Positions 16,185 through 33,431 of a stretch of DNA of 64,000 bases are shown one piece after another. The stretch is from Natronobiforma cellulositropha (GTDB lineage Archaea; Halobacteriota; Halobacteria; Halobacteriales; Natrialbaceae). The position numbers and the translations under genes were made by a program. Under the pieces are notes generated by a model, which searched no databases, had not been told where the DNA came from, and worked only from the letters and a program-made list of their open reading frames with translations. The stretch lies in contig NZ_JANZXN010000020.1 in assembly GCF_025629245.1 (NCBI RefSeq), forward strand, positions 1,920-65,919, written 5' to 3'. The first letter of the stretch is position 1, and each line of letters starts with the position of its first letter.

Positions 16185-16595
16185 TCACTCTGAAACTGCA
16201 GACCGGACGAGCGACTCGAACTCGTCACCGTCGATCTCGTAGACGGTGTATCCCATGACGGTTCGTTTCTTCAGAATCGGGCCGACCTCCTCGCCGTCGA
16301 CGACGATCTGCCAGTGGCTCCCCTCGGTCACGTTCTTGCCGACGATGCGAACGTCTGTCTCGAGTTCGTCCGCCAGGTCGCGAACCCGCGAGTAGGCGAT
16401 CGATCCGTCGAGAAACCGGGAGGGACGAAACGGTCGGAGACCGTACCGTTCGAACTCCTCGATCGCGTCCTGCCACCACGTCGGCAGTTCGTCAACGTCG
16501 ACCTCCTCGTACGGATCGTCGGCCGTCTCGCCGGCCTCGCGGTGGCGAAGGTCCTCGATACTCGCAGGCTCTGACTCCGGAGGGTCACGTGTCAT
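16185..16595 (-). CDS. Conserved haloarchaeal hypothetical protein
   Basis: 136 residues, acidic N-terminal half (EDLRHREAGETADDPYEEVDVDELPTWW) followed by a compact region (RPFRPSRFLDGSIAYSRVRDL and WQIVVDGEEVGPILKKR). I recognise no enzyme family or motif. The start at 16595 is chosen because upstream the frame only mirrors the NicX-like gene and a TATA-like TATATA lies about 25 bases before (near 16620). It is transcribed towards tctC, 224 bases away, and divergent from the NicX-like gene, so a regulatory or accessory role is possible but unproven. Confidence 0.6.
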   Translation of the reverse strand: MTRDPPESEPASIEDLRHREAGETADDPYEEVDVDELPTWWQDAIEEFERYGLRPFRPSRFLDGSIAYSRVRDLADELETDVRIVGKNVTEGSHWQIVVDGEEVGPILKKRTVMGYTVYEIDGDEFESLVRSAVSE

Positions 16596-16745
16596 AGCTG
16601 GTTGTACTCTCGCCGACGTATATACCTCTAGGGGAGAAACGCCGTGGGCCTGCAAGCCACACCGTCCGACGGCCACCAGTATGCACACCAGGGAGAACGT
16701 GTGAGAGGACACCCGCGGAAAACCACGGGAGATGGCCAAGCGAAG

Positions 16746-16753
16746 TTTATATG
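16746..16753 (+). promoter_or_regulatory. TATA box of the M29/NicX-like gene
   Basis: TTTATATG about 30 bases before the ATG at 16782; it decides this start over the open frame that continues to 16644 and implies a nearly leaderless mRNA. Confidence 0.65.
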
Positions 16754-16781
16754 TGGGTCGGATTCGACGGTACAGACCGCA

Positions 16782-17786
16782 ATGTCCAATCTGTGGAGTC
16801 AGGACGACTTCGTTCGCTACGCCGACGCAGCGTCGAAGCCGGGTCGTCTGCAAGAGATTATCCAGAACACGCACAAGATCCTCGAGTACCGCCTCACCGG
16901 CGAGGAAGAGCGAGCACACATCCTCACCGACACGAACGTCAGCCCGCTCATCTACCACACGGTCGCGGGCATCCTCTCGACGATGGGCGTCGAGCCGACG
17001 ATTTCGATTATTCAGAAACTCGACGCGCCCAACAACGAACCCACGAAGGAGGTCTCGGCGGGTGTGAAAGAGACCGACGTGATCGTCAACCTGATGACGT
17101 TCACCGTCAGCCACGCCGCCGCCGTCGAACACGCACGGTACGACCTCGGCGTCGACTACATTCTCCTCGCCGACCCGACCGAGGACTCCTTCACGCAGGG
17201 AGCGATCACCGCAGACCCCGCCGAAGTCGACGGCTTCACCGACGAGGTCGCCGACATTCTGGAGGAAGCCGACTGGATCGAAGTGACCTCGCCGTACGGC
17301 ACCGACGTCGAGTTCAGTATCGAGGGCCGCCGACAGGTCCGCGCCCGGTTCCCGATGGGTGAGACACCCACCTGTCCGATCGAAGAGACCGTCAACGGCA
17401 CCATCGTCCACGAGAGCTTCATGATGGGCGTCGGCATCCTCGACGACCCCATCATCTGGGAGGTCGAAGAGGGGCGCATCCAGGAGATCCGCGGCGGCAA
17501 AGAGGCGCGCGCACTCGAGCGCTACATCGACCGCCACGGCGACGAGAACTCCTACTGGATCGGCGAGTTCTCCGCGATGACCCAGCCGAACGCCCGCCCG
17601 AACGGCAACTACATCGAACACAAGCAGGTCCGCGGCGGCGTCCACTTCGCCTGCGGGACGGGGACGAACCTCGGCGGTCAGTACCGCAGTTCGCTCCACC
17701 TCGACGGCATCCAACTCGAGCCGACCGTCGTCGTCGACGGCGTGACGCTCATCGAAGACGGCGAGTACCGACTCGAGAACTTCTAA
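16782..17786 (+). CDS. M29 aminopeptidase / NicX (2,5-dihydroxypyridine dioxygenase)-like metalloenzyme
   Basis: 334-residue protein of the COG2309 group, which includes M29 leucyl aminopeptidases and the ring-cleaving Fe(II) enzyme NicX of nicotinate degradation. The C-terminal metal-site region is clear: IGEFSAMTQPNARP, then RGGVHFACGTG, then SSLHLDGI, where the His-x-Asp pair (HLD) corresponds to metal ligands in both branches. Sequence alone does not decide between peptidase and ring-opening oxygenase. Position next to the tct operon and upstream of the amidohydrolase/Rieske pair favours a catabolic role on a small ring or amide compound (inference). The start is set by the TATA at 16746. 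Confidence 0.75.
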   Translation: MSNLWSQDDFVRYADAASKPGRLQEIIQNTHKILEYRLTGEEERAHILTDTNVSPLIYHTVAGILSTMGVEPTISIIQKLDAPNNEPTKEVSAGVKETDVIVNLMTFTVSHAAAVEHARYDLGVDYILLADPTEDSFTQGAITADPAEVDGFTDEVADILEEADWIEVTSPYGTDVEFSIEGRRQVRARFPMGETPTCPIEETVNGTIVHESFMMGVGILDDPIIWEVEEGRIQEIRGGKEARALERYIDRHGDENSYWIGEFSAMTQPNARPNGNYIEHKQVRGGVHFACGTGTNLGGQYRSSLHLDGIQLEPTVVVDGVTLIEDGEYRLENF

Positions 17787-18016: not shown

Positions 18017-19390
18017 ATGACAATTACGATAGCCCTATCCGGAGACGCGAACGTCAATCGCCGGTTCTCGATGTGTACCGACGAGCAGTTTCTCGACCTC
18101 GTCGAGGTGTTCAGAGACGCCGACGTCGGCATCACCCACCTCGAGACGGTGATCACGGAGTACGACGGCGAAAACGTGTATCCGGCGGCCGAAGCCGGTG
18201 GCACCTGGATGCGAGCGCCGCGGTTCATCGCCGACGAACTCGCCTGGGGCGGGTTCGACGCGATCTCACAGGCGTCGAACCACGCGCTCGACTACAGCTA
18301 CGGCGGTCTCCGAAGCACCTGGGACGCACTCGATGACGCTGGCGTCGCCCACGCGGGCGCGGGTGAGAACCTCGGTGAAGCACGCTCGCCGACGTACGTC
18401 GACACCGAGAACGGCCGGGTCGGTCTCGTCTCGATGACTGCGACGTTCACCCCCTGGAGCCGTGCCGGTGAAGCACGCTCAGACATGCGTGGCCGTCCCG
18501 GCGTCAACCCGGTCAGACTGTACTACGAGGTCGACGCGGAGACGCTCGAGTCGATCAAGACGCTCGCGAAACAGTTCGGCTGGTGGATCACGAAGGAGGG
18601 TGAAGAGATCCTGATCAACAGACACGGACTGCACAACACGGTCCAGCGCTACGTCGAGAACGAGGACGTCGACGGCGCAGAGATGACGCTCAACGCGAAC
18701 GACGTGGCGGGCAACCTGCGAGCGGTCGCCGACGCCGACAACCGCGCCGACGTCGCCATCGCCCACCTCCACACCCACGAGTTCGCCCCCGACGGCGACA
18801 TGACCGTCCCACCGGCGTGCATCGTCGAGTTCGCCCACCAGTGTGCCGACGAGGGTGCAGACGTCGTCGTCTGCCAGGGCAGTCACGCACCGATGCGTGG
18901 CATCGAACTCTACGAGGGCGTCCCCATCTTCTACGATCCCGGCGACTTCTTCTTCCAGAGCGACTCCGTCGAGCGCCTCCCCGCCGAGTTCTACTACCAG
19001 CACCACCACGACCTCGACACCCACCCGCTCGAGGCGACACCCTCCGAAGGCTTCGCCGCGCGTGGACTGGTCTACCCGTGGGGCGAGCCAGCCTCGGACG
19101 CCACCGAGTCGGCGTCGTTCGGGACCGAAGAGACGCTGTTGCACCCGTCTGAGGGAATGTTCGTCGGTCCCGGCTGTACCGTCCCCGTCTGCACCTTCGG
19201 CGAGGACGGCGTCGAGCGCATCGAAATCTACCCGGCGACCTGGCTCTCGAGTCCCGAGTCTTACGTCGGCATCCCGAAGCGGGCGACCGGCGAGCAGGCG
19301 ACGGAGATCCTGACCTACCTCGACGACCTCTCCTCGGCGTTCGGTACCTCCATCGACATCGAGGGCGAAGTCGGCGTCGTCTCGCTCTGA
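18017..19390 (+). CDS. CapA-family metallophosphatase-like protein
   Basis: 457 residues of the CapA/PGA_cap family (calcineurin-like fold). Metal-site motifs in order: SGDANVNRR at the N terminus, ITHLETVI, SQASNHALDYSYGG, AIAHLHTHEFAPDGD and VCQGSHAPMRG, then YDPGDFFFQ. Classical CapA belongs to poly-gamma-glutamate synthesis, but this protein lacks a signal or membrane segment and has no capB/C neighbours. Cytosolic homologues are often beside transport and catabolic genes, so a hydrolase acting in the adjoining pathway is more likely (inference). The promoter is probably ACATATAAC near 17969-17977, leaving a ~20-base leader. Confidence 0.8.
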   Translation: MTITIALSGDANVNRRFSMCTDEQFLDLVEVFRDADVGITHLETVITEYDGENVYPAAEAGGTWMRAPRFIADELAWGGFDAISQASNHALDYSYGGLRSTWDALDDAGVAHAGAGENLGEARSPTYVDTENGRVGLVSMTATFTPWSRAGEARSDMRGRPGVNPVRLYYEVDAETLESIKTLAKQFGWWITKEGEEILINRHGLHNTVQRYVENEDVDGAEMTLNANDVAGNLRAVADADNRADVAIAHLHTHEFAPDGDMTVPPACIVEFAHQCADEGADVVVCQGSHAPMRGIELYEGVPIFYDPGDFFFQSDSVERLPAEFYYQHHHDLDTHPLEATPSEGFAARGLVYPWGEPASDATESASFGTEETLLHPSEGMFVGPGCTVPVCTFGEDGVERIEIYPATWLSSPESYVGIPKRATGEQATEILTYLDDLSSAFGTSIDIEGEVGVVSL

Positions 19391-20067: not shown

Positions 20068-21201
20068 ATGGCGAAAACCAGTAGCCTGCAATCGATGGAC
20101 GACTTACCAGTCGTCATCGACGCCGACGCACACGTCAGAGAGAGTCAAGAGGACTTCTTCCCGTATCTGGAAGAGCCGTACAACCAGTGGATTCACACCC
20201 GCAACAAGCCGTCCGATCCACGCGAAGAAGAGCGTGTCCGGAGCAAGGTCGTCAAGAGCGTCTACCCCTCGCCCGGCGCGATCCACCCGGACTTCACGGG
20301 GCGGGCTGACCGAGTCATCGTCAACTCGCCCGAGGACGTCAAAGAGGGTCACTTCGAGAAACTCGGCATCAACAAGGTCGTCCTGACCCCCTCACAGAAT
20401 CTCGCGCTCGGGGCCGTCCACCACGACGACCTCGCCGCCGCGATCGCGAGCGCCTACAACGAGTGGATGCTCGATACGATCCTCGACGCCGACCCCGACT
20501 TCTACGGCTCGATCCTGATCGCCCCGCAGAAGCCCGAAGAGGCCGCCGAAGAGATCGACCGACGCGCAGACGAGGAGAAGTTCGTCGCCGTCCAGTTCCC
20601 GAGCGCGGGAGCGAACCCGCTGATGGGCCACGAGCAGTACTACCCGATCTACGAGGCCGCCCAGGACGCCGGACTCGGCATCCACATGCACAGTGCCTCC
20701 CAGATCGACATGATCTCGACCTTCTCGTTCATGGCTCGCGGAACCAGCCGCTACCTCGAGACCCACTCGACGCTCCACTCGGCCGAGCAGATGACCAACC
20801 TCGCGAGTCTCCTGACTCACGGCGTTCCCGAGCGCTACCCCGACGTCCAGTTCCTGATGCAGGAGGCCGGTATCGGCTGGCTGCCCTACTTCATGCGCCG
20901 GTTCGACCACGAGTACACCATCGCTCGAGACGACGCGCCGTGGCTGACGCAGATGCCGAGTGAGTACATCCGCTCGAACTTCCAGATCTCGAGCCAGCCG
21001 ATGGAGGGGATCGAAGAGCCGGAGTACATCCGGAGTATGATCAACCTCCTCGGACCGGAGAACCTCCTGTTCTCCTCTGACTACCCACACCACGACTTCG
21101 ACAACCCGGAGGCGCTGTTCAACGTTCTCCGCGGCAGCCTCGAAGAGGCTGACGTCGAAGCGATCTTCGGCGGCAACGCACAGCAGTTCTACAACCTCTA
21201 A
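20068..21201 (+). CDS. Amidohydrolase-family (ACMSD/Amidohydro_2-like) metalloenzyme, copy 1
   Basis: 377-residue TIM-barrel metal-dependent hydrolase or decarboxylase of the Amidohydro_2 superfamily. The first-strand motif is VIDADAHVRE, where D-x-H stands in for the usual H-x-H; further candidate ligands are His in GLGIHMHSAS, His in SLLTHGVPERYPD and Asp in LLFSSDYPHHDFD. This D-A-H variant is common in 2-amino-3-carboxymuconate-semialdehyde-decarboxylase relatives acting on aromatic-derived acids. It is followed by a Rieske gene after 17 bases, and the pair is paralogous to 31927-33431. Substrate unknown. Confidence 0.88.
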   Translation: MAKTSSLQSMDDLPVVIDADAHVRESQEDFFPYLEEPYNQWIHTRNKPSDPREEERVRSKVVKSVYPSPGAIHPDFTGRADRVIVNSPEDVKEGHFEKLGINKVVLTPSQNLALGAVHHDDLAAAIASAYNEWMLDTILDADPDFYGSILIAPQKPEEAAEEIDRRADEEKFVAVQFPSAGANPLMGHEQYYPIYEAAQDAGLGIHMHSASQIDMISTFSFMARGTSRYLETHSTLHSAEQMTNLASLLTHGVPERYPDVQFLMQEAGIGWLPYFMRRFDHEYTIARDDAPWLTQMPSEYIRSNFQISSQPMEGIEEPEYIRSMINLLGPENLLFSSDYPHHDFDNPEALFNVLRGSLEEADVEAIFGGNAQQFYNL

Positions 21202-21218
21202 CAACACTACAAGAAGTA

Positions 21219-21578
21219 ATGAGCAACAGTACACGACACCTCGTATCCACGGTCGACGACATCGAAGACGGAGAACGGTTCATCACGGAGATCGAAGGCA
21301 GAGAGATCTGTGTGATCAACGCAGACGGCGAGTACTACGCCGTCGCGAACTACTGCATCCACCAGGGCGGTCCCGTCTGTGAAGGCTCGATGGGCGGCTA
21401 CCTCACCGTCGACGAACGGAAAGAACTCGTCTACAAGGACGAAGAGAACATCCTGTGTTGTCCCTGGCACGCCTGGGAGTTCGACGTCAAGACCGGCAAG
21501 CACGTGACGAACGACAACTACCAGATTCCGACCTACGACATCCAGATCGAAGACGACAACATCTACGTCACGGTCTAA
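21219..21578 (+). CDS. Rieske [2Fe-2S] ferredoxin, copy 1
   Basis: 119-residue stand-alone Rieske protein. Cluster ligands are Cys-x-His in NYCIHQGGPVCEG and Cys-x2-His in CPWHAWEFDVKTG. The spacing between the two motifs is longer than in many dioxygenase ferredoxins because of an insert (GYLTVDERKELVYKDEEN). No oxygenase alpha subunit is found anywhere in the window, so its partner is not a normal Rieske dioxygenase nearby. It is separated by 17 bases from the amidohydrolase and shares its transcript. It is similar along its whole length to the Rieske protein at 33069-33431. Confidence 0.92.
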   Translation: MSNSTRHLVSTVDDIEDGERFITEIEGREICVINADGEYYAVANYCIHQGGPVCEGSMGGYLTVDERKELVYKDEENILCCPWHAWEFDVKTGKHVTNDNYQIPTYDIQIEDDNIYVTV

Positions 21579-24756: not shown

Positions 24757-25530
24757 ATGGCACAACCGACCATCGACAGCGAAAACACGGTGAAATCGGT
24801 CGAAACGTCGTTCCACATCGTGGAATACCTCAAGGACGTCGACGGTGCTCGCGTGACGGAGGTCGCAGACGCACTCGGCATCGCGAAGAGCACCGTCCAC
24901 CGCCACCTGGTCACCCTCGTCGAGATCGGCTGCGTCGTGAAAGAGGGCGATATCTACGACGTCGGCTTCAGGTTCCTCGAGTTCGGCGAGTACGCCAAGA
25001 CGAGAAAGGCGGCCTACGCGATGGCCGAGGAGAAGGTCAAAGAGCTCGCCGCGAAGACCGAAGAGCGCGCCCAGTTTCTCGTCGAAGAACACGGCCAGTC
25101 CGTGTTCGTCTACCGCGAGACCGGACGAAACGCCGTCCAGACCGATCCGGGAATCGGCAAACGGGTGCCGATTCACGCCTCCGCCGCGGGCAAAGCGATT
25201 CTCGCACACCTCCCCACAGAGGAGGTGCGAGAGATCATCGACCAGCACGGACTGGTCGCACTGACCGAACACACGATCACCGATCCTGACGCCCTCTTCG
25301 CCGAACTCGAGGAGATCAGAGAGCGAGGCTACGCGCTGAACAACCAGGAGAACATCGACAGCCTGCGGGCCGTCGGCGTGCCCGTCCTCGGAAACAACGA
25401 CCAGGTCATCGGGAGTCTGAGCGTCTCCGGCCCGACGCATCGCTTCAAGGGCCAGTACGTCGAGCGAGAGATTCCCGACCTCTTACTCGGCACGGCGAAC
25501 GAACTCGAACTCAACATCAAGTACTCGTAA
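24757..25530 (+). CDS. IclR-family transcriptional regulator, copy 1
   Basis: 257 residues: winged helix-turn-helix at ~10-75 (VTEVADALGIAKSTVHRHLVTLVEIGC) and an IclR effector-binding GAF-like domain to the end, with IHASAAGKAILAHLP and the C-terminal IGSLSVSGPTHR typical of the family. Haloarchaeal IclR proteins commonly bind short palindromes and control sugar or aromatic catabolism. This one sits in the island immediately before a 669-base gene-free region containing three copies of a 20-bp palindrome (25602-25823), which are candidate binding sites. Paralogue at 44439-45200. Confidence 0.92.
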   Translation: MAQPTIDSENTVKSVETSFHIVEYLKDVDGARVTEVADALGIAKSTVHRHLVTLVEIGCVVKEGDIYDVGFRFLEFGEYAKTRKAAYAMAEEKVKELAAKTEERAQFLVEEHGQSVFVYRETGRNAVQTDPGIGKRVPIHASAAGKAILAHLPTEEVREIIDQHGLVALTEHTITDPDALFAELEEIRERGYALNNQENIDSLRAVGVPVLGNNDQVIGSLSVSGPTHRFKGQYVEREIPDLLLGTANELELNIKYS

Positions 25531-26199: not shown

Positions 26200-27087
26200 T
26201 TACTGGCGGCGTTCGGCGTCGCCCATCGTCCGCTTGAAGTGTTCGTACATCTCGGTGTAGTCGCCGTCGGGACCGATGTCGCCTCTGATCTGGGCGATCA
26301 CTTGTCGAATCGTCCCGCCGACGGTGAACGGCGTCTCGGTCCCCTCGGCGACGGACATCAGCAGTCCCATGTCCTTCTCGACGAGGCTCATCTCGTACTC
26401 CATGTCGTAGCGGCCGGTGACGACGTACTCGGGGAATTTGAACGAGGTCGCCGTGTTTCGGCCGCTGCTCGTGTTGAAGACATCGAGCATCGTCTCGAGT
26501 TCGAGACCGACCTGCTGGCCGATCATCGTCGCCTCGGAGGTACAGATCATCGCGACGAACGAGAGGTAGTTGTTCACCAGTTTCATCCCGTGGCCGTGAC
26601 CCGGTTCGTCGCCGACGTGGAAGACGTTCGCGGCGATAGATTCGAACAGCGGCTCGCAGGTCTCGAACGCCGCACGCTCCCCGCCGACCATGACGGCGAG
26701 CGTCCCGTCTTCGGCACCCGCACGGCCGCCGCTGATCGGCGCGCCGAGGACGTCGACCGACCGCTCGGTGAGTTCCTCGGCAACCGCGTTCGTCGTCTCC
26801 GGCGTCGACGTCGTGAGGTCGACCAGGATGGTTCCCTCCTCGAGATGTGGCTCGAGCTCGTCGACGACGGCGAGAACGTGGTCGGGACCGGGGAGACACA
26901 TCATGACGACGTCCGACGCGTCTGCGAGCGCTGAAACGTCCGCAGCGGGCTTCGCCCCCTCTGCGACGAGTTCGTCGATGGCCTCCTGACGGAGGTCGAA
27001 CACGGTGAGGTCGTGTCCGTCCGCGACGATGTTTCGAGCCATGCGGCTACCCATAGTACCGAGTCCAAGGAATCCTATACGATCCAT
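26200..27087 (-). CDS. Beta-hydroxyacid dehydrogenase (3-hydroxyisobutyrate / tartronate-semialdehyde reductase family)
   Basis: 295 residues of the 6-phosphogluconate-dehydrogenase-like superfamily. N-terminal Rossmann motif IGFLGLGTMGSRMARNI, substrate-binding APISGGRAGAEDGTLAVMVGG (signature with GG), and the catalytic Lys in GHGMKLVNNYLSF, all in the right order. It would interconvert a beta-hydroxy acid and its semialdehyde with NAD(P). An adjacent perfect palindrome (27087-27110) lies between the TATA and its ATG, so it is probably under tight local repression. It may act on a product of the DapA-like lyase, but no direct evidence links them. Confidence 0.92.
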   Translation of the reverse strand: MDRIGFLGLGTMGSRMARNIVADGHDLTVFDLRQEAIDELVAEGAKPAADVSALADASDVVMMCLPGPDHVLAVVDELEPHLEEGTILVDLTTSTPETTNAVAEELTERSVDVLGAPISGGRAGAEDGTLAVMVGGERAAFETCEPLFESIAANVFHVGDEPGHGHGMKLVNNYLSFVAMICTSEATMIGQQVGLELETMLDVFNTSSGRNTATSFKFPEYVVTGRYDMEYEMSLVEKDMGLLMSVAEGTETPFTVGGTIRQVIAQIRGDIGPDGDYTEMYEHFKRTMGDAERRQ

Positions 27088-27305: not shown

Positions 27306-28391
27306 TCAGGAGCGCTCGAGCGTGACGTGCGTCTCGGAGACCTCGCTCACAGTGCCGTCGATCGAGGCGTGCTGGGTGTTGCTGATCGAATCGGGAGCCG
27401 GGGTAGCGACGACGTCGCCAGCCGACACCGTATCGCCAGGGTCGACACACGGGACGCTCGGTTCGACGAAGCCGGTGTAGGCGGCGTTCGTGATGAGCGG
27501 AATCCGAACCCGGTCCGGTTCGAGACGAGTGGGTTCGGTCTCGTGGTCGCGGTCCCACTCGTGGGCGGTCAGGACGTCGATCTGGCCATCGTCCTGCAGA
27601 TTGTCGCGCGCGAGGTCCTCGTCGAGAACGAGCACCGCGTTGGTGCGCTTTCTGACGCCGAAGGCATCCGGTTCCGCCTCGATCTCGTAACACCAGCCCG
27701 GTCCGCCGTCGGCGAGAATCTCGTTCTCGGCGATCGCACCGTCGTCGACTCCAGCCGCCTCGAGCAGGTCGCTCGCCGGCGTACCGATCGGCACGTCGAG
27801 ACAGCGGTGACGTGGCGTGTTGCCGTCGACCTGGACGAGTTTTCGGGTCACGGGCGTCCCGTCGCGGAGGGCACGGGCGACGTTGAAAATGCTCTCGGTG
27901 TTGTGGACGAGCCAGCCGTGATCGGTCGGGAGACCGTCACCGAGCTGGACGCCCGCGGTCACCATCAACAACACCGACTCCTCGCTGTAGGTGTAGACGT
28001 TGGGGGTGTAGACGAGCGCGAGACCCGTCTGTTCGGCGAAGTCGGCTGGCAAGTCCTCGGGCGTGTACACCGCCTCGCCCGCCGCCTCCTCGAGCGGTCC
28101 CAGCCACTCCTCGCGGTAGCCCACTTTGGTGCCGACGACGACGCGCTCGAGGGTGTCCTCGAGGAGCGTCTCGAAGAACGCGACGAGGTCGGCGGCGTGC
28201 TCGCGGCCGAGCCACTTATCGGCGTAGTAGTTCGGCTCGCTCTCCTGGTGGTTGACCAGCAGTGAGTCGACGTTCGCGAGCGCCTGCCACTTGACGTACG
28301 AGGGGAAGCCAGCACCGCCAGCACCGGCGACGCCGGCGGCCTGGAGACGGTCGGGAATCTCGTCGGGTCGAATCGGAGCGTCTGTGTCCAT
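27306..28391 (-). CDS. PduS/RnfC/Nqo1-like SLBB flavoprotein
   Basis: 361 residues. The FMN/NADH-binding start AAGVAGAGGAGFPSYVKW and VNHQESEPNYYADKWL resemble the RnfC/PduS GGAGFP motif; an SLBB-like segment follows (KLVQVDGNTPRHRCLDVPIGTPASDLL), then a lipoyl-like barrel at the C terminus (VDPGDTVSAGDVVATPAPDSI). It lacks the 4Fe-4S cysteine motifs of full RnfC and PduS. It may pass electrons between NAD(P)H and the small ferredoxin encoded 6 bases upstream on the same strand. This reaction is inferred from family and neighbour; cofactors are not proven. Confidence 0.8.
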   Translation of the reverse strand: MDTDAPIRPDEIPDRLQAAGVAGAGGAGFPSYVKWQALANVDSLLVNHQESEPNYYADKWLGREHAADLVAFFETLLEDTLERVVVGTKVGYREEWLGPLEEAAGEAVYTPEDLPADFAEQTGLALVYTPNVYTYSEESVLLMVTAGVQLGDGLPTDHGWLVHNTESIFNVARALRDGTPVTRKLVQVDGNTPRHRCLDVPIGTPASDLLEAAGVDDGAIAENEILADGGPGWCYEIEAEPDAFGVRKRTNAVLVLDEDLARDNLQDDGQIDVLTAHEWDRDHETEPTRLEPDRVRIPLITNAAYTGFVEPSVPCVDPGDTVSAGDVVATPAPDSISNTQHASIDGTVSEVSETHVTLERS

Positions 28392-28397
28392 GGCAGG

Positions 28398-28649
28398 TCA
28401 GGGTTCGGGGGCGACCTGGGTGCCGTCGTCGTCGTAGACGATGATCGCGTCGATGGGACAGGAGTGCGCCGCGTCGATGGCCTTCTGTTCGGCGTCTTCG
28501 GGAACCTCACGCTCGAAGATGCCGTCGTCGGTCTCTTCGGCCCCGTTCAGGTCGGCCTTTCCGGCGCCCATGTTCATATCGAATTCGTCCCACTTCTGGA
28601 TGCACTGAAACCACGCAGCACAGGCCATGCGGTTGTACTCGACTCGCAT
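28398..28649 (-). CDS. Small ferredoxin with a 3-Cys cluster site ([3Fe-4S]-like)
   Basis: 83 residues. Only three cysteines are present: Cys10 and Cys16 in ACAAWFQCIQKWDEF and Cys64 in HSCPIDAI. The pattern C-x5-C ... CP, with a non-Cys residue at the central position, matches single-cluster [3Fe-4S] ferredoxins such as those serving P450s. The start at 28649 is fixed by a TATA (CTATATACC, minus strand 28672-28680) about 25 bases upstream; an in-frame upstream Met would lie before the promoter. It forms an operon with the PduS-like flavoprotein downstream. Confidence 0.85.
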   Translation of the reverse strand: MRVEYNRMACAAWFQCIQKWDEFDMNMGAGKADLNGAEETDDGIFEREVPEDAEQKAIDAAHSCPIDAIIVYDDDGTQVAPEP

Positions 28650-28670
28650 TATAGGAGGGGATATGCCCGC

Positions 28671-28680
28671 AGGTATATAG
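28671..28680 (-). promoter_or_regulatory. TATA box of the ferredoxin/PduS-like operon
   Basis: Minus-strand CTATATACCT 22-31 bases before the ATG at 28649; leaderless start expected. Confidence 0.65.
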
Positions 28681-28702
28681 GTGATGTGGTAGCGTGAACG
28701 GC

Positions 28703-30064
28703 TCACCGCATCGAACGACGGTCGACGACGAACCCGAACGAGTCAACCGTTCTGAGATCCTCGAGACGGTCGAACACCGCGAGCGCCGCCGCCTCGTCGA
28801 CGACAGAGCGTGTACACTCGAGGAACTTCGCACGCAACCGGTCGTCGTCGACGGCGAGGTCGTGACCCCCGCCGGAGCGTCCGTAGGAGTCGGTGACGGT
28901 TCGTTCGAATTCGCCGTCGTCGGTACGGATGCGGACGGTCGCATCCTGGGAGTTGTACGGCAGGTCGGGGTCGACGTGGAAGGTGACGCGCTCGCGGAGG
29001 GTCTCGAGCGCCGGATCGCCAACCCGCTCGTCGTCGAACGCCGAGAGACCGACGTCGCCGTCGGCCAGCGCGTGGGCGACCGTGTAGGGAAGCGAGAACT
29101 TCGCCTCGAGTCCGGTCTGCGGGTTCGGGTGTTTGAGAATCTGGGCGGCGTTCTTCGAGCCGAAGACGTCGACCGAGCGGACGTCGTCTGGCTCGAGGTC
29201 GTACTCGTCGACGAGCGCGAGCGTCGCGTCGAGGCTGGTCTGGGTGGCCCGACAGCAGGGGTACTTCTTGAGGTAGATGCGGTCCTCGACGAGGTGCCAG
29301 CGGTCGACGGCCGGGTCGTGCTCGACCTCGCCGCCGTAGAGCGCCCAGAAGCCCTGCTCGCCGCTGATAGCCGTCGAGTCTGCGGTGACGCCGACGAGTG
29401 CGAGTTCGGCGGCGGTCAGCCCCGAGCGGGCGGCGAGACCGACCTGTATCGGCTTCATCATCGAGCCGAAGTTCTCCTTCACGCCGGCGGCAGTCGAGGC
29501 AGCGACGGTCAGCGTCGTCTCGAGTTCGTCCGCGGTAGCCCCACGCAGTACGGCCGCGGCGACGGCCGACCCGAAGACGCCGAACGTCGCCGTCGCGTGC
29601 CAGCCGCGTTTGTAGTGGTCGGTGACGATCGGTCTGGCGATGGCTGCGGCCGCCTCGAAGCCCGCGACGTAGGCGGTGAGCACGTCCTCGCCGTCGACGC
29701 CGGGCGTATCCGAGAGCGCACAGAGCGCTGGCACGAGCGTCGCGCTCGGGTGGCCGCGGATGGCGTGGGTCGTATCGTCGTAGTCGAGGGCGTGTATCGC
29801 CGCGCCGATGGCGAGTGCAGCGTCGAACGGGGAGTCGTAGGTCCCGGGAGCCAGGCCGTCGAACCCCCGCACACTGTCGTCCTCGACACCGACGAACGTT
29901 CTGGCGCGCTCACCAACCTCGGTCTCGAGGCCGGCGACGGCGACGCCAACCGTGTCGGTGATCGACCGCTCGGCCGCCCTGACTGCGGCTTCCGGTAGCT
30001 CGTCGTACTCGAGTCGAGCGAGTCGGTTCGCGAGCGCTCGCTCGAAGTGGTCGGATCGGTCCAT
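28703..30064 (-). CDS. MmgE/PrpD-family protein (2-methylcitrate dehydratase-like)
   Basis: 453 residues. Family signatures are AAIHALDYDDTTHAIRGHPS near residue ~95, where the DYDD and H are active-site region residues, and KKYPCCRATQTSLDATLAL in the C-terminal domain. MmgE/PrpD enzymes include 2-methylcitrate dehydratase, aconitate-like dehydratases and cis-aconitate decarboxylase. No prpB/prpC partners are in the window, so the propionate pathway should not be assumed; a dehydratase or decarboxylase step on a tricarboxylic intermediate fits the island (inference). The start at 30064 has a TATA (AACTATAACT, minus, ~30094-30103) upstream and removes an unconserved N-terminal extension. Confidence 0.9.
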   Translation of the reverse strand: MDRSDHFERALANRLARLEYDELPEAAVRAAERSITDTVGVAVAGLETEVGERARTFVGVEDDSVRGFDGLAPGTYDSPFDAALAIGAAIHALDYDDTTHAIRGHPSATLVPALCALSDTPGVDGEDVLTAYVAGFEAAAAIARPIVTDHYKRGWHATATFGVFGSAVAAAVLRGATADELETTLTVAASTAAGVKENFGSMMKPIQVGLAARSGLTAAELALVGVTADSTAISGEQGFWALYGGEVEHDPAVDRWHLVEDRIYLKKYPCCRATQTSLDATLALVDEYDLEPDDVRSVDVFGSKNAAQILKHPNPQTGLEAKFSLPYTVAHALADGDVGLSAFDDERVGDPALETLRERVTFHVDPDLPYNSQDATVRIRTDDGEFERTVTDSYGRSGGGHDLAVDDDRLRAKFLECTRSVVDEAAALAVFDRLEDLRTVDSFGFVVDRRSMR

Positions 30065-30212: not shown

Positions 30213-31832
30213 ATGGTCAGGTACGAATCTCTCGAGTGCGACCCGTGGGACTACGAGACCGACGTGCTGGTCGTCGGCTTCGGCGGGGCGGGTGGCTGTG
30301 CAGCGATCGAAGCCGTCGACGCGGGCGCCGACGTGCTGGTGATCGAGAAACAACACGAAGACACCTACTACTCGAACACGCGCATCTCCGGTGGCGGCTA
30401 TCACAGCCCCGACCCGGACGGCGACCGGGAGGCGCTCGTGGCGTACGCGACGGCGATGTTCAGCGGGCACAACCTCCCGTGGAAACTCGAAGGCGAACTC
30501 CCGGAAGACCTCGCAGAAGACCTCGCCGAGGCGTGGGCGACCTACGCGCCGGAGAACGAAGCCTGGATGCGGTCGCTCGACCCCGACTACGAGACGGTAC
30601 TCGAGGGAACCGCGGCGTTTCCGGACTTTCCGGGCGCGGACGCGTGTGCCTACCGCGTCGTGCGCAGTACCTACTCCGGCGGTGCCGAGAACAAGGAGGT
30701 GTGTCAGAAGGACGCGCCGAAGGCGGAGAAAGAGGCCGGCGAGGCGTTCTACGCGTGTCTGCGTCACGGCGTCGACGAGCGCGGCATCGACGTCCACTGG
30801 GGGGCACCTGCGGAGGAGTTCGTCGTCGACGAGACCGGTGCGGTTCGCGGGGTCGCCGTCGCGCACGACGGCGAGACGGTCTACTACGGCGCGGGTGCGA
30901 CGGTGTTGACCACCGGCGGCTTCGAGTACAACCGCGACCTCCGGCTGAACTTCCTCGAGGGGGCGGGCGTCGAGGGCTGGGCGTTCTACAGCAACCCGGC
31001 GAACACCGGCGACGGCATCGTCATGTCGATGGAAATCGGTGCGTCGCTCTCGAAGGTGGGCAAGAGCGCCTCCCGGATGATCACCGCGATTCCGGTCCGC
31101 AAACACGGGCTGAAGATGGGGCTGCGGACGCCTGTCGTCGGCCGGCCGAACGCCATCGTCGTCGACAACGCGGGGCGGCGCTACGCCTCTGAACGGACGA
31201 TCACGAAGGATCCGAGCAGGTACTTCTTCTACAAGAAGGGCGTCGTCTTCGACATCGAGGCGCTCGTCTACCCGCGCATCCCCTCCTGGCTGATCTTCGA
31301 CGAGACGCTCCGAAGTCAGCGCTCGGTCGTCGGCACGCGCGAACTCGGCTACCACGGCATCGAGTGGGGCGAGCGCAACGAGACGGCCATCGAGAAGGGG
31401 TGGATACTCGAGGCCCCGACGGTCGAGGCGCTCGCCGAGCAAATCGCCGCCCACCCGGACAACCGCGAAGCGATGGACCCGGAGACGCTCGCGACGACCG
31501 TCGCCACGTACAACGGCTACTGTGAGGCGGGCGTCGACGAGGCATTCGGCAACGCACCCGAGAACATGGCACCGCTGCGGACGCCGCCGTTCTACGCCGT
31601 CCCGCTCTATCCGGGCGGGCCGAACACGAAAGGGGGACTGATGGCGAACGCCGAGCGGGAGGTCCTCGACGCCGACGGTGAGGCGATCACGAACCTCTAC
31701 TCCGCGGGCGAGATCTCTTCGGCGTTCAAGTTCGTCTACCAGGGCGGCGGGAACCTCGCCGAGTGCATCGCTTTCGGCCGCATCGCCGGGCTGAACGCGG
31801 CCGCGGCCGCCTCGAGCGGAGACCGGTCCTGA
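30213..31832 (+). CDS. FAD-dependent oxidoreductase (fumarate reductase/flavocytochrome c, 3-ketosteroid dehydrogenase-like)
   Basis: 539 residues. The FAD Rossmann motif DVLVVGFGGAGGCAAIEAVDAGADVLVIEKQ lies at residues ~15-45, followed by TRISGGGYHSPDP. The C terminus GGNLAECIAFGRIAGLNAAAAA is the second FAD-binding strand of this family. Members reduce or dehydrogenate activated C-C bonds (fumarate, urocanate, 3-ketosteroids). No heme motif or Tat signal is visible, so it is cytosolic. Lying between a PrpD-like gene and an amidohydrolase/Rieske pair, it could reduce an unsaturated ring-derived acid (inference). Confidence 0.9.
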   Translation: MVRYESLECDPWDYETDVLVVGFGGAGGCAAIEAVDAGADVLVIEKQHEDTYYSNTRISGGGYHSPDPDGDREALVAYATAMFSGHNLPWKLEGELPEDLAEDLAEAWATYAPENEAWMRSLDPDYETVLEGTAAFPDFPGADACAYRVVRSTYSGGAENKEVCQKDAPKAEKEAGEAFYACLRHGVDERGIDVHWGAPAEEFVVDETGAVRGVAVAHDGETVYYGAGATVLTTGGFEYNRDLRLNFLEGAGVEGWAFYSNPANTGDGIVMSMEIGASLSKVGKSASRMITAIPVRKHGLKMGLRTPVVGRPNAIVVDNAGRRYASERTITKDPSRYFFYKKGVVFDIEALVYPRIPSWLIFDETLRSQRSVVGTRELGYHGIEWGERNETAIEKGWILEAPTVEALAEQIAAHPDNREAMDPETLATTVATYNGYCEAGVDEAFGNAPENMAPLRTPPFYAVPLYPGGPNTKGGLMANAEREVLDADGEAITNLYSAGEISSAFKFVYQGGGNLAECIAFGRIAGLNAAAAASSGDRS

Positions 31833-31926: not shown

Positions 31927-33066
31927 ATGGCACCAACGCAGTCGGGAGGAGAGCTTTCGGTAGACTCGATGCTCGTCGTCGACGCCGACGCGCACCTGCT
32001 CGAGAAGGACGAGGACCTGCTACCGTACATGGACGAGTATCCGGGGATGAAACGCTACATCGAGGGGGCGTCGGATCCCTCGGTCCAGATCCGCACACAG
32101 ATCTACTCGGGACCGAACACCGTCGGCATCTACGACACGGACGCACGCGACCTGACCTCCTCGGTCTACGACAAACTCAAAGACGACGACGAGTCGGCGC
32201 ACGTCGACACGAAACTCGAGGAGATGAACGACTTCGGCATCGACGTCGGCGTCGTCACCGGGACGACGATGCTCCACATCAACACGGTGAACTACCCACA
32301 GGCCGCACTCGCCTACGCGAACGCCTACAACAAGTTCCTCCGACACGAGATCCTCGACGCCCACGAGGGGATCAAAGCCGCCGCACTCGTCTCGCAGTTC
32401 GAACCCGAGAAGGGAGCCGAAGAGATCGACGAGATGGGCAGCGAAGAGGACATCGTCGCCGTCGCGATGCCCAACGGCGGGCTGAGACCGCCGTTCGGCT
32501 CGAAGGAGTTCGATCCGATCTACCAGGCGGCCGTCGACAACGACCTGCCGATCTTGCTCCACCCAACGACGAGCCTCGGCTTCGACTATCCGGCGACCTA
32601 CCGCGACTCACACACCTACGCCGAGTCGCGCGTCGTCTCCCAGCCCTGGCGCTGTATGTGGGATCTGACCACCTCGTTGACCCGCGGGCTTCCCGAACGC
32701 TTCCCCGACCTGCAGATCGTCTTCCAGGAAGCCGGCATCGCCTGGGTGCCGTACACGCTCTGGCGCCTCGACGACACCTACATGGAACACCCCGACCAGG
32801 TGCCGCTGCTCGAGCAGCTCCCGAGTGAGTACGTCGAAGACCGCTACTACTTCACAACCCAGCCGCTCGGGCACACGAGCGGGGCGAACCTGGCGTCGGC
32901 GTTCGACCTCCTCGGGCCGGAGTCGATCATGTTCTCCTCCGACCTTCCCCACGGAGCGTTCGACTCGGCCCCGGAGATCCTCAGACAGCTCACCCCCCAC
33001 TTCGACGAGGAGACGATCCGTGCGATCATGGGCGAAACGGCGGCGTCGGTCTTCGGGCTCGAGTGA
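31927..33066 (+). CDS. Amidohydrolase-family (ACMSD/Amidohydro_2-like) metalloenzyme, copy 2
   Basis: 379 residues, paralogous to 20068-21201. The first-strand motif is again D-A-H (VVDADAHLLEKDEDLLPY), with later His in PILLHPTTSLG, SLTRGLPERFPDLQIVFQEAG and Asp in MFSSDLPHGAFDSA. The start at 31927 (MAPTQSGGE) is chosen because of an AT-rich promoter-like stretch (GTTAATGTTTATG, ~31893-31905) before it; the frame is open further up but without promoter. The following Rieske gene begins 3 bases after the stop, so the two are cotranscribed and perhaps translationally coupled. Confidence 0.9.
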   Translation: MAPTQSGGELSVDSMLVVDADAHLLEKDEDLLPYMDEYPGMKRYIEGASDPSVQIRTQIYSGPNTVGIYDTDARDLTSSVYDKLKDDDESAHVDTKLEEMNDFGIDVGVVTGTTMLHINTVNYPQAALAYANAYNKFLRHEILDAHEGIKAAALVSQFEPEKGAEEIDEMGSEEDIVAVAMPNGGLRPPFGSKEFDPIYQAAVDNDLPILLHPTTSLGFDYPATYRDSHTYAESRVVSQPWRCMWDLTTSLTRGLPERFPDLQIVFQEAGIAWVPYTLWRLDDTYMEHPDQVPLLEQLPSEYVEDRYYFTTQPLGHTSGANLASAFDLLGPESIMFSSDLPHGAFDSAPEILRQLTPHFDEETIRAIMGETAASVFGLE

Positions 33067-33068
33067 CG

Positions 33069-33431
33069 ATGGCGAACAGAACACTCATCGCGACGGTTGC
33101 GGACCTGCCGGACCACGGCGACCGGATCATTCAGGAAGTTGGCGGCGTCGAAATCTGCGTCTTCAACATCGACGGCGAGTACAGAGCCATCGCGAACTAC
33201 TGCGTCCACGAGGCAGGGCCGCTCTGTGAGGGGAGCCTGACGGGCCAGATGTGCACCAGCGACGAGGACGAGTGGCACTGGGAGTACGAGCGAGACGGCG
33301 AACTCATCGAGTGTCCCTGGCACAGCTGGACGTTCGACGTGAAGACTGGCGACAACGTCAAAGACGACCGCTACTCGGTGCCGACCTACGACGTGGACGT
33401 GGAGGACGGAGAGATATTCGTTCTGCTCTGA
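33069..33431 (+). CDS. Rieske [2Fe-2S] ferredoxin, copy 2
   Basis: 120 residues, with Rieske ligands NYCVHEAGPLCEG and CPWHSWTFDVKTG, as in copy 1, and the same elongated spacing between motifs (insert around TGQMCTSDEDEWHW). It starts at ATG 33069, 3 bases after the amidohydrolase stop; a GTG at 33063 overlapping that stop is possible. No oxygenase subunit is nearby. The order amidohydrolase then Rieske is the same in both copies, which argues for a conserved functional pair in which the Rieske protein serves the adjacent enzyme or a shared redox partner. Confidence 0.92.
   Translation: MANRTLIATVADLPDHGDRIIQEVGGVEICVFNIDGEYRAIANYCVHEAGPLCEGSLTGQMCTSDEDEWHWEYERDGELIECPWHSWTFDVKTGDNVKDDRYSVPTYDVDVEDGEIFVLL

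Follow-up and report, generated by a model that had tools for sequence, protein, structure and literature searches.

Each of the two amidohydrolase-Rieske gene pairs found in the window, the whole 64,000-nucleotide stretch of Natronobiforma cellulositropha DNA analyzed here, very probably encodes the oxygenase and the ferredoxin of an amidohydrolase-related dinuclear oxygenase (ARO). This assignment is based on gene order, homology, metal ligands, co-inheritance and the lack of competing systems. We infer the metal content, electron flow, O2 chemistry, substrate class and role of a small third protein that are proposed below. AROs belong to PF04909, contain a dinuclear site of the Fe2 or Mn/Fe type and catalyse C-H hydroxylation; their genes usually adjoin a small Rieske gene (PMC10811679, PMC7782822, PMC10401708, PMC12141560).

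The gene pairs and their neighbourhood

Both pairs are present where a first-pass annotation of the sequence had located them, with all four genes on the plus strand. The features relevant to the system are:

16185-16595, minus strand: small protein of 136 aa from an uncurated family, inside a long spurious frame and upstream of tctC
20068-21201, plus strand: putative oxygenase component of pair A, Amidohydro_2 fold, 377 aa, with six AibH2-type ligands and the second-sphere Asp
21219-21578, plus strand: Rieske ferredoxin of pair A, 119 aa, 32 residues from CxH to CxxH
24757-25530, plus strand: IclR-type regulator between pairs A and B
26200-27087, strand opposite to the pairs: 3-hydroxyisobutyrate-dehydrogenase-like gene
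27306-28391, minus strand: RnfC/Nuo51-like FMN protein, a weak local candidate for the electron donor
28398-28706, minus strand: Fer4_15 single-cluster ferredoxin beside the RnfC-like protein, a weak local candidate for a carrier
30213-31832, plus strand: FAD_binding_2 flavoprotein directly upstream of pair B
31927-33066, plus strand: putative oxygenase component of pair B, with six first-sphere ligands and Ala at the AibH2 Asp342 position
33069-33431, plus strand: Rieske ferredoxin of pair B, 34 residues from CxH to CxxH

The order and close spacing that had been described were borne out. In pair A the two genes are separated by 17 bases, as stated, but the 3 bases given for pair B need correction: the genes are 2 bases apart if the Rieske gene starts at the inferred ATG at 33069, and overlap by 4 bases if it starts at a possible GTG at 33063. 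The amidohydrolase frame of pair B is open from 31885, and its inferred start at 31927 is probable. Amidohydro_2 (PF04909) was matched with 122 bits in pair A and 85 bits in pair B (cut-off 26.4), and the Rieske model with 53 and 52 bits, respectively. The pairs share only 36% identity between the amidohydrolases and 48% between the ferredoxins, and they belong to different subclades of the tree, which rules out a recent tandem duplication. The statement that the pair is present twice holds for the window but understates the genome (assembly of 3.76 Mb in 60 contigs, 96.5% complete), which contains four directly linked pairs, the two in the window and those at C7:318702-320097 and C24:42673-43769, as well as a looser fifth ARO/Rieske place at C24:243-249 kb. 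The fourth linked pair (region C24:33501-53500) is of a type with Thr in place of the second-sphere Asp, and two ABC-type ATPase genes are located upstream of it. At the fifth place (region C24:236001-256000, L019) a Rieske protein with a 24-residue segment has a non-ARO amidohydrolase (HGGYN) nearby on the opposite strand, and its own strand carries an ARO at a distance of about 3.3 kb; this arrangement reads as a loosened or rearranged fifth system.

The base composition of the window, its acidic proteins and named relatives indicate a haloarchaeal origin. The pairs of the window are surrounded by a catabolic island. Its genes encode a TctABC transporter, an MBL-fold protein, an SDR, a DHDPS-family lyase and the IclR regulator. 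These are accompanied by genes for the 3-hydroxyisobutyrate-dehydrogenase-like protein, the RnfC-like flavoprotein with the Fer4_15 ferredoxin, MmgE/PrpD and the FAD_binding_2 flavoprotein, and further by MFS, iron alcohol dehydrogenase, aldo/keto reductase and aldehyde:ferredoxin oxidoreductase genes. The FAD_binding_2 flavoprotein is a putative pathway dehydrogenase that is possibly co-transcribed with pair B; a homolog occurs in just one of 98 other loci. The 3-hydroxyisobutyrate-dehydrogenase-like gene recalls aibD1 of the Aib pathway (PMC7782822), although here it is located on the other strand. A CapA-like neighbour (18017-19390) was rejected as part of the system, as it is present in 14 of 242 genomes, shares only four with the ferredoxin and shows no enrichment. 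Positions 16732-17786 on the plus strand probably hold a real gene, which faces a long spurious minus-strand frame; the frame at 16644-17786 has no Pfam match.

A search for the pair across genomes, which had been proposed as a check, was run over 242 genomes of the class, and a profile of the Rieske protein found similar proteins in 61 of them. About 12 kb were read around the listed Rieske places, giving 99 sequences with 101 Rieske ORFs. An amidohydrolase was located within 300 nt of 91 of these 101 ORFs, nearly always directly upstream and on the same strand. The ARO and Rieske trees agree with r = 0.84 (90 pairs; none of 1000 permutations exceeded 0.075), an agreement that is expected anyway for genes that stay linked. 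When the neighbours of the 85 haloarchaeal paired loci were clustered, the largest groups after the ARO and Rieske proteins themselves were IclR regulators (37 loci), ABC ATPases (28) and an unknown small protein (24), followed by ABC permeases (19), aldehyde dehydrogenases (12) and OpuAC-type binding proteins (9). The loci L076, L077, L085, L086, L094 and L105 are among those that combine an ARO-Rieske pair with an OpuAC-type (glycine-betaine-like) ABC transporter. The presence of this transporter suggests quaternary amines or similar compounds as substrates of the corresponding ARO subclade.

Metal ligands and the ferredoxin segment

The best solved-structure matches of both amidohydrolases are the ARO chains 8SM7, 8SM6, 8SM8 and 8SM9 and the chains of AibH1H2. 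For pair A these were led by 8SM7 (4e-55) and 8SM6 (6e-45), with AibH1H2 chains at about 1e-37 to 3e-34, and for pair B by 8SM7 (3e-44), whereas decarboxylases of the same family, e.g. 4ICM, scored far weaker against both proteins. The metal ligands of AibH2 are D25, H27, H211, E265, D337 and H340 (numbering from PMC7782822). All six are found in the pair A protein as D20, H22, H208, E266, D338 and H341, and all six first-sphere ligands are kept in the pair B protein as well. Asp342 of AibH2, a residue of the second sphere, corresponds to Asp in pair A (D343) and to Ala in pair B. Among 102 amidohydrolase ORFs this position is occupied by Asp in 73 and by Thr in 22, the latter representing one Rieske-linked clade, and by Ala in pair B alone; two have Val or Ile in a degenerate ligand set and four show non-ARO patterns. 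For 42 of the 102 proteins the profile alignments end early and leave out the DxH ligand pair, but a motif search on whole frames found it in 84 of the 90 paired proteins. The remaining six comprise some near misses (e.g. L059 and L079) and some partial or misjoined frames.

The Asp342-type acidic residue has been called conserved only in binuclear enzymes (Hibi 2021, PMC7782822), and the D342A substitution lowered the activity of AibH2 (Powell 2023, PMC10401708). As this residue is missing in the pair B protein, the latter may be altered or poorly active, judging from its sequence. In a stronger form of this reading, the protein at 31927-33066 would not be catalytic by itself but an AibH1-like structural partner that joins the pair A enzyme in a heteromeric complex. 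AibH1 also lacks the Asp342-type residue (PMC7782822), the Ala is unique among the 102 ORFs, and a second amidohydrolase with degenerate ligands occurs beside the pair at two other loci, L055 and L056. However, the pair B protein retains six first-sphere ligands and a Rieske gene of its own, it is located 11 kb from pair A in a different neighbourhood, and a Rieske-linked clade of about 21 proteins has Thr at this position. A partner role of this kind is therefore unlikely. The additional amidohydrolases at L055 (6361-7578) and L056 (4718-6190) show a DQKGDHV/I pattern and are possible haloarchaeal counterparts of the non-catalytic AibH1 subunit.

It is still less probable that the amidohydrolases are ordinary members of PF04909 with a single metal, acting as hydrolases or decarboxylases, and that the Rieske proteins serve something else and are neighbours by chance. 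The family does hold many non-redox enzymes, and these also match the window proteins, but more weakly than the AROs, and such a reading is at odds with the six-ligand set, the ARO chains as nearest structures, the near-invariant adjacency, the agreement of the trees and the lack of any other Rieske-dependent oxygenase of the PF00848 type in the genome. The same evidence lends good support to the earlier suggestion that the Rieske proteins serve the amidohydrolase-fold enzymes.

The first-pass annotation had also pointed out an unusual insert between the ligand motifs of both Rieske proteins, and this proved to be more widespread. The segment between CxH and CxxH comprises 32 residues in pair A and 34 in pair B, versus 14-20 in 40 control Rieske proteins of haloarchaea. 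The controls were small Rieske frames that match the general Pfam model but had not been found by the first class-wide profile search; they were taken in list order, with the small frame G039:C4 passed over and later rows left out. None of the 40 has an ARO-like ORF within 2.5 kb. An ARO adjoins 88 of 92 Rieske proteins with a long segment (at least 24 residues) but only four of 49 with a short one (20 or fewer; Fisher p ~2e-27, a descriptive value, like the other Fisher value given here, as kin sequences are treated as independent). The exceptions are L078, L118, L019 and L138, with a long segment but no counted ARO, and L120, L136, L141 and L144, with a short segment and an ARO nearby. L118 has only a partial ARO frame and the neighbour in L019 is without the ligands, so both were scored as lacking an ARO. 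Long segments also occur on bacterial plasmids: seven Rieske proteins from ARO clusters (L148, L149, L196, L197, L198, L199 and L205) have 32 or 37 residues, and so does that of L200, a matching bacterial plasmid cluster whose ARO lies outside the sequence fetched. Four bacterial Rieske proteins used for comparison, two ferredoxins of naphthalene/salicylate oxygenases, NirD and one long Rieske protein, have 16 residues each. On these counts and plasmid examples, the long segment is, at the level of sequence, a general mark of ARO-linked ferredoxins in both haloarchaea and bacteria. It is probably located at the docking face. AlphaFold2 modelled the pair A Rieske protein from four sequences with a mean pLDDT of 78.7, but residues 51-70 of the long segment reached only about 57-58, so that the predicted shape of this segment is of low confidence.

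The absence of an oxygenase alpha subunit from the window was confirmed: Ring_hydroxyl_A (PF00848) has no match in the window or in the whole 3.76 Mb, 96.5%-complete assembly, while the Haloferax control was positive. Small Rieske ferredoxins of bacteria typically serve Rieske oxygenases, but the other option raised at first, that the window ferredoxins serve such an enzyme encoded elsewhere in the genome, is very unlikely, since no PF00848 gene was found in the assembly and the long segments are absent from the 40 other small haloarchaeal Rieske proteins and the four bacterial ones.

Electron supply, a small candidate third protein and the proposed reaction

No reductase of the AibF/PDR type (PF00175) and none of the BphA4 type (PF14759) was matched in the genome, which leaves the electron chain incomplete. 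The PF00848, PF00175 and PF14759 searches were each positive in several control genomes. Haloferax volcanii was positive only for PF00848, and haloarchaea may thus commonly be without the two reductase families. PDR/VanB reductases are encoded in some bacterial ARO clusters (L148, L149 and L200), and the PDR proteins of L148 and L149 have no homologs in the other loci, haloarchaeal ones included, of the assembled set of locus ORFs. In Halobaculum halophilum an ARO-Rieske pair has an annotated 'NADH dehydrogenase subunit' and a 'ferredoxin' no farther than about 3 kb away. The RnfC/Nuo51-like protein of the window was rejected as a general ARO reductase, since 12 of the 35 genomes in which it occurs also have the ferredoxin, compared with 61 of all 242 genomes, which is no enrichment (p = 0.21).

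The small protein encoded at 16185-16595 belongs to a family of about 105-140 aa with a WW motif, a variable N-terminus and an alpha/beta core predicted at low confidence. Its profile was found in 30 of the 85 paired loci in addition to the window. Members have no Pfam or NCBIfam match and no convincing match in the PDB (best E 0.19), and structure prediction from the single sequence was poor (mean pLDDT 56). The family is present in 35 of 242 genomes, and 33 of these 35 also contain the ferredoxin (61 of 242 overall; Fisher p ~2e-21, descriptive). Of the 38 places with a small gene, 35 have such a Rieske gene within 10 kb, measured start to start; the distance is at most 5.5 kb for 32 of them, 2.5 kb for 29 and 1 kb for 19. 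In G174 it is 16 kb, and the two places without such a Rieske gene are G185 (partial) and G119 (fragments). In a sample of 294 genomes of the phylum the family occurs in nine, all members of the order to which the window belongs. Among 72,556 plasmid records it was found in 16, all haloarchaeal; in 14 of these an ARO or its Rieske gene is no more than 5 kb away, in one (L193) a long-segment Rieske gene follows at 6 kb, and on a Salinigranum plasmid (L192) no ARO or Rieske gene is annotated within 7 kb. The tree of the small protein agrees with those of the ARO (r 0.74) and the ferredoxin (r 0.73; n = 31), the permutation maxima being 0.23 and 0.24. The family is lineage-specific, as it was not found in the loci of the Thr clade or in many loci with betaine-type transporters. 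In the window the gene is located 3.5 kb from pair A on the opposite strand and outside its operon, and the other pairs of the genome have no copy of their own. These patterns of co-occurrence suggest that the small protein is likely a further component of the haloarchaeal ARO system; a function as chaperone or regulator would be a guess. A different protein of 93-99 aa is encoded between ARO and Rieske genes on alphaproteobacterial plasmids (L196:3344-3643, L197:3359-3640 and L199:2648-2947). The two members tried (L196 and L199) have no Pfam match, and no homology to the haloarchaeal small family was found (E at least 0.5).

In the proposed ARO reaction, electrons would pass from a donor to the Rieske [2Fe-2S] protein, which would dock on the adjoining TIM-barrel protein, probably via the enlarged inter-ligand segment, and reduce its two-metal site (Fe2 or Mn/Fe). 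O2 activated at this site would hydroxylate a small catabolic substrate at a C-H bond, and the hydroxylated product would be oxidized by dehydrogenases encoded nearby. The small accessory protein, encoded in this island at 16185-16595, perhaps regulates or assembles the oxygenase. We tentatively consider, as a possibility short of even odds, that haloarchaeal AROs form a distinct multicomponent type, consisting of an oxygenase, a ferredoxin with an ARO-specific docking segment, a small regulating or metallating protein and an electron donor outside the usual flavin reductases. The assignment would place widely annotated haloarchaeal 'amidohydrolases' among the O2-activating C-H hydroxylases, offers the long CxH...CxxH segment as a simple sequence mark to tell ARO ferredoxins from other Rieske proteins, and names a small protein family as candidate third component.

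Comparison with known systems

The first-pass annotation took redox activity of an Amidohydro_2 enzyme to be a novelty, which is wrong, since AibH1H2 (2021, 2023), PtmU3 and SfbO (2024) are established PF04909 oxygenases (PMC7782822, PMC10401708, PMC10811679). Adjacency to a small Rieske gene ('guilt by association') is what led to SfbO, and redox-active metal pairs are bound by this protein as well as by three further candidates (Liu 2024, PMC10811679). SfbO and the candidate AROs 8SM7, 8SM8 and 8SM9 of that study are the closest solved relatives of the window proteins and follow the same logic of Rieske adjacency. Unlike the proteins described here, however, the AROs named there are bacterial, and the text of that paper, as far as available, is silent on archaea, on a loop or insert and on an effector. 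In the tree of 555 proteins of Powell 2023 (PMC10401708), 90% have an adjacent small Rieske gene, and an AibH2-like branch is haloarchaeal. This branch represents the same class and host group as the window pairs and is uncharacterized there. Mn/Fe AROs were predicted in the same study to be common in Mn-rich organisms, halophiles among them, which makes haloarchaea suited to testing Mn/Fe AROs. Section 7 of that paper reports few other co-occurring proteins and, in the text available, no small accessory protein, and the haloarchaeal small family differs in this respect. No biochemistry of haloarchaeal members was found in the accessible parts of the ARO literature (PMC10811679, PMC7782822, PMC10401708, PMC12141560). 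A study of riboflavin catabolism (PMC12746152) concerns a classical Rieske dioxygenase and has no bearing here, and in the accessible text of PMC13274452, which cites Powell 2023, no ARO content was found.

Small accessory proteins are also encoded with bacterial multicomponent diiron monooxygenases, where they are known as effectors of the MmoB/DmpM type. The likeness of the haloarchaeal small protein to these effectors is an analogy only, as members of its family match no Pfam or NCBIfam model.

The window pairs resemble AibH1H2-AibG-AibF, the 2-aminoisobutyric acid monooxygenase of Rhodococcus wratislaviensis, in the amidohydrolase fold, the six-ligand site, the adjoining Rieske gene and the location in a catabolic cluster. 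AibH1H2GF needs both the Rieske protein AibG and the reductase AibF in cells (PMC7782822, PMC10401708). In contrast, the system described here has one amidohydrolase per Rieske protein, no PF00175 reductase gene in the genome and an extra small protein, and pair B is without the Asp342 equivalent. A second, mononuclear amidohydrolase of the AibH1H2 type is not encoded beside the window pairs, and a degenerate-ligand neighbour was seen at L055 and L056 only. The pair itself thus belongs to a published class, and haloarchaeal sequences were already included in the 2023 tree. Compared with the open-licence literature, supplements aside, the long-segment mark, the small protein family and the lack of the usual reductases are new as far as found.
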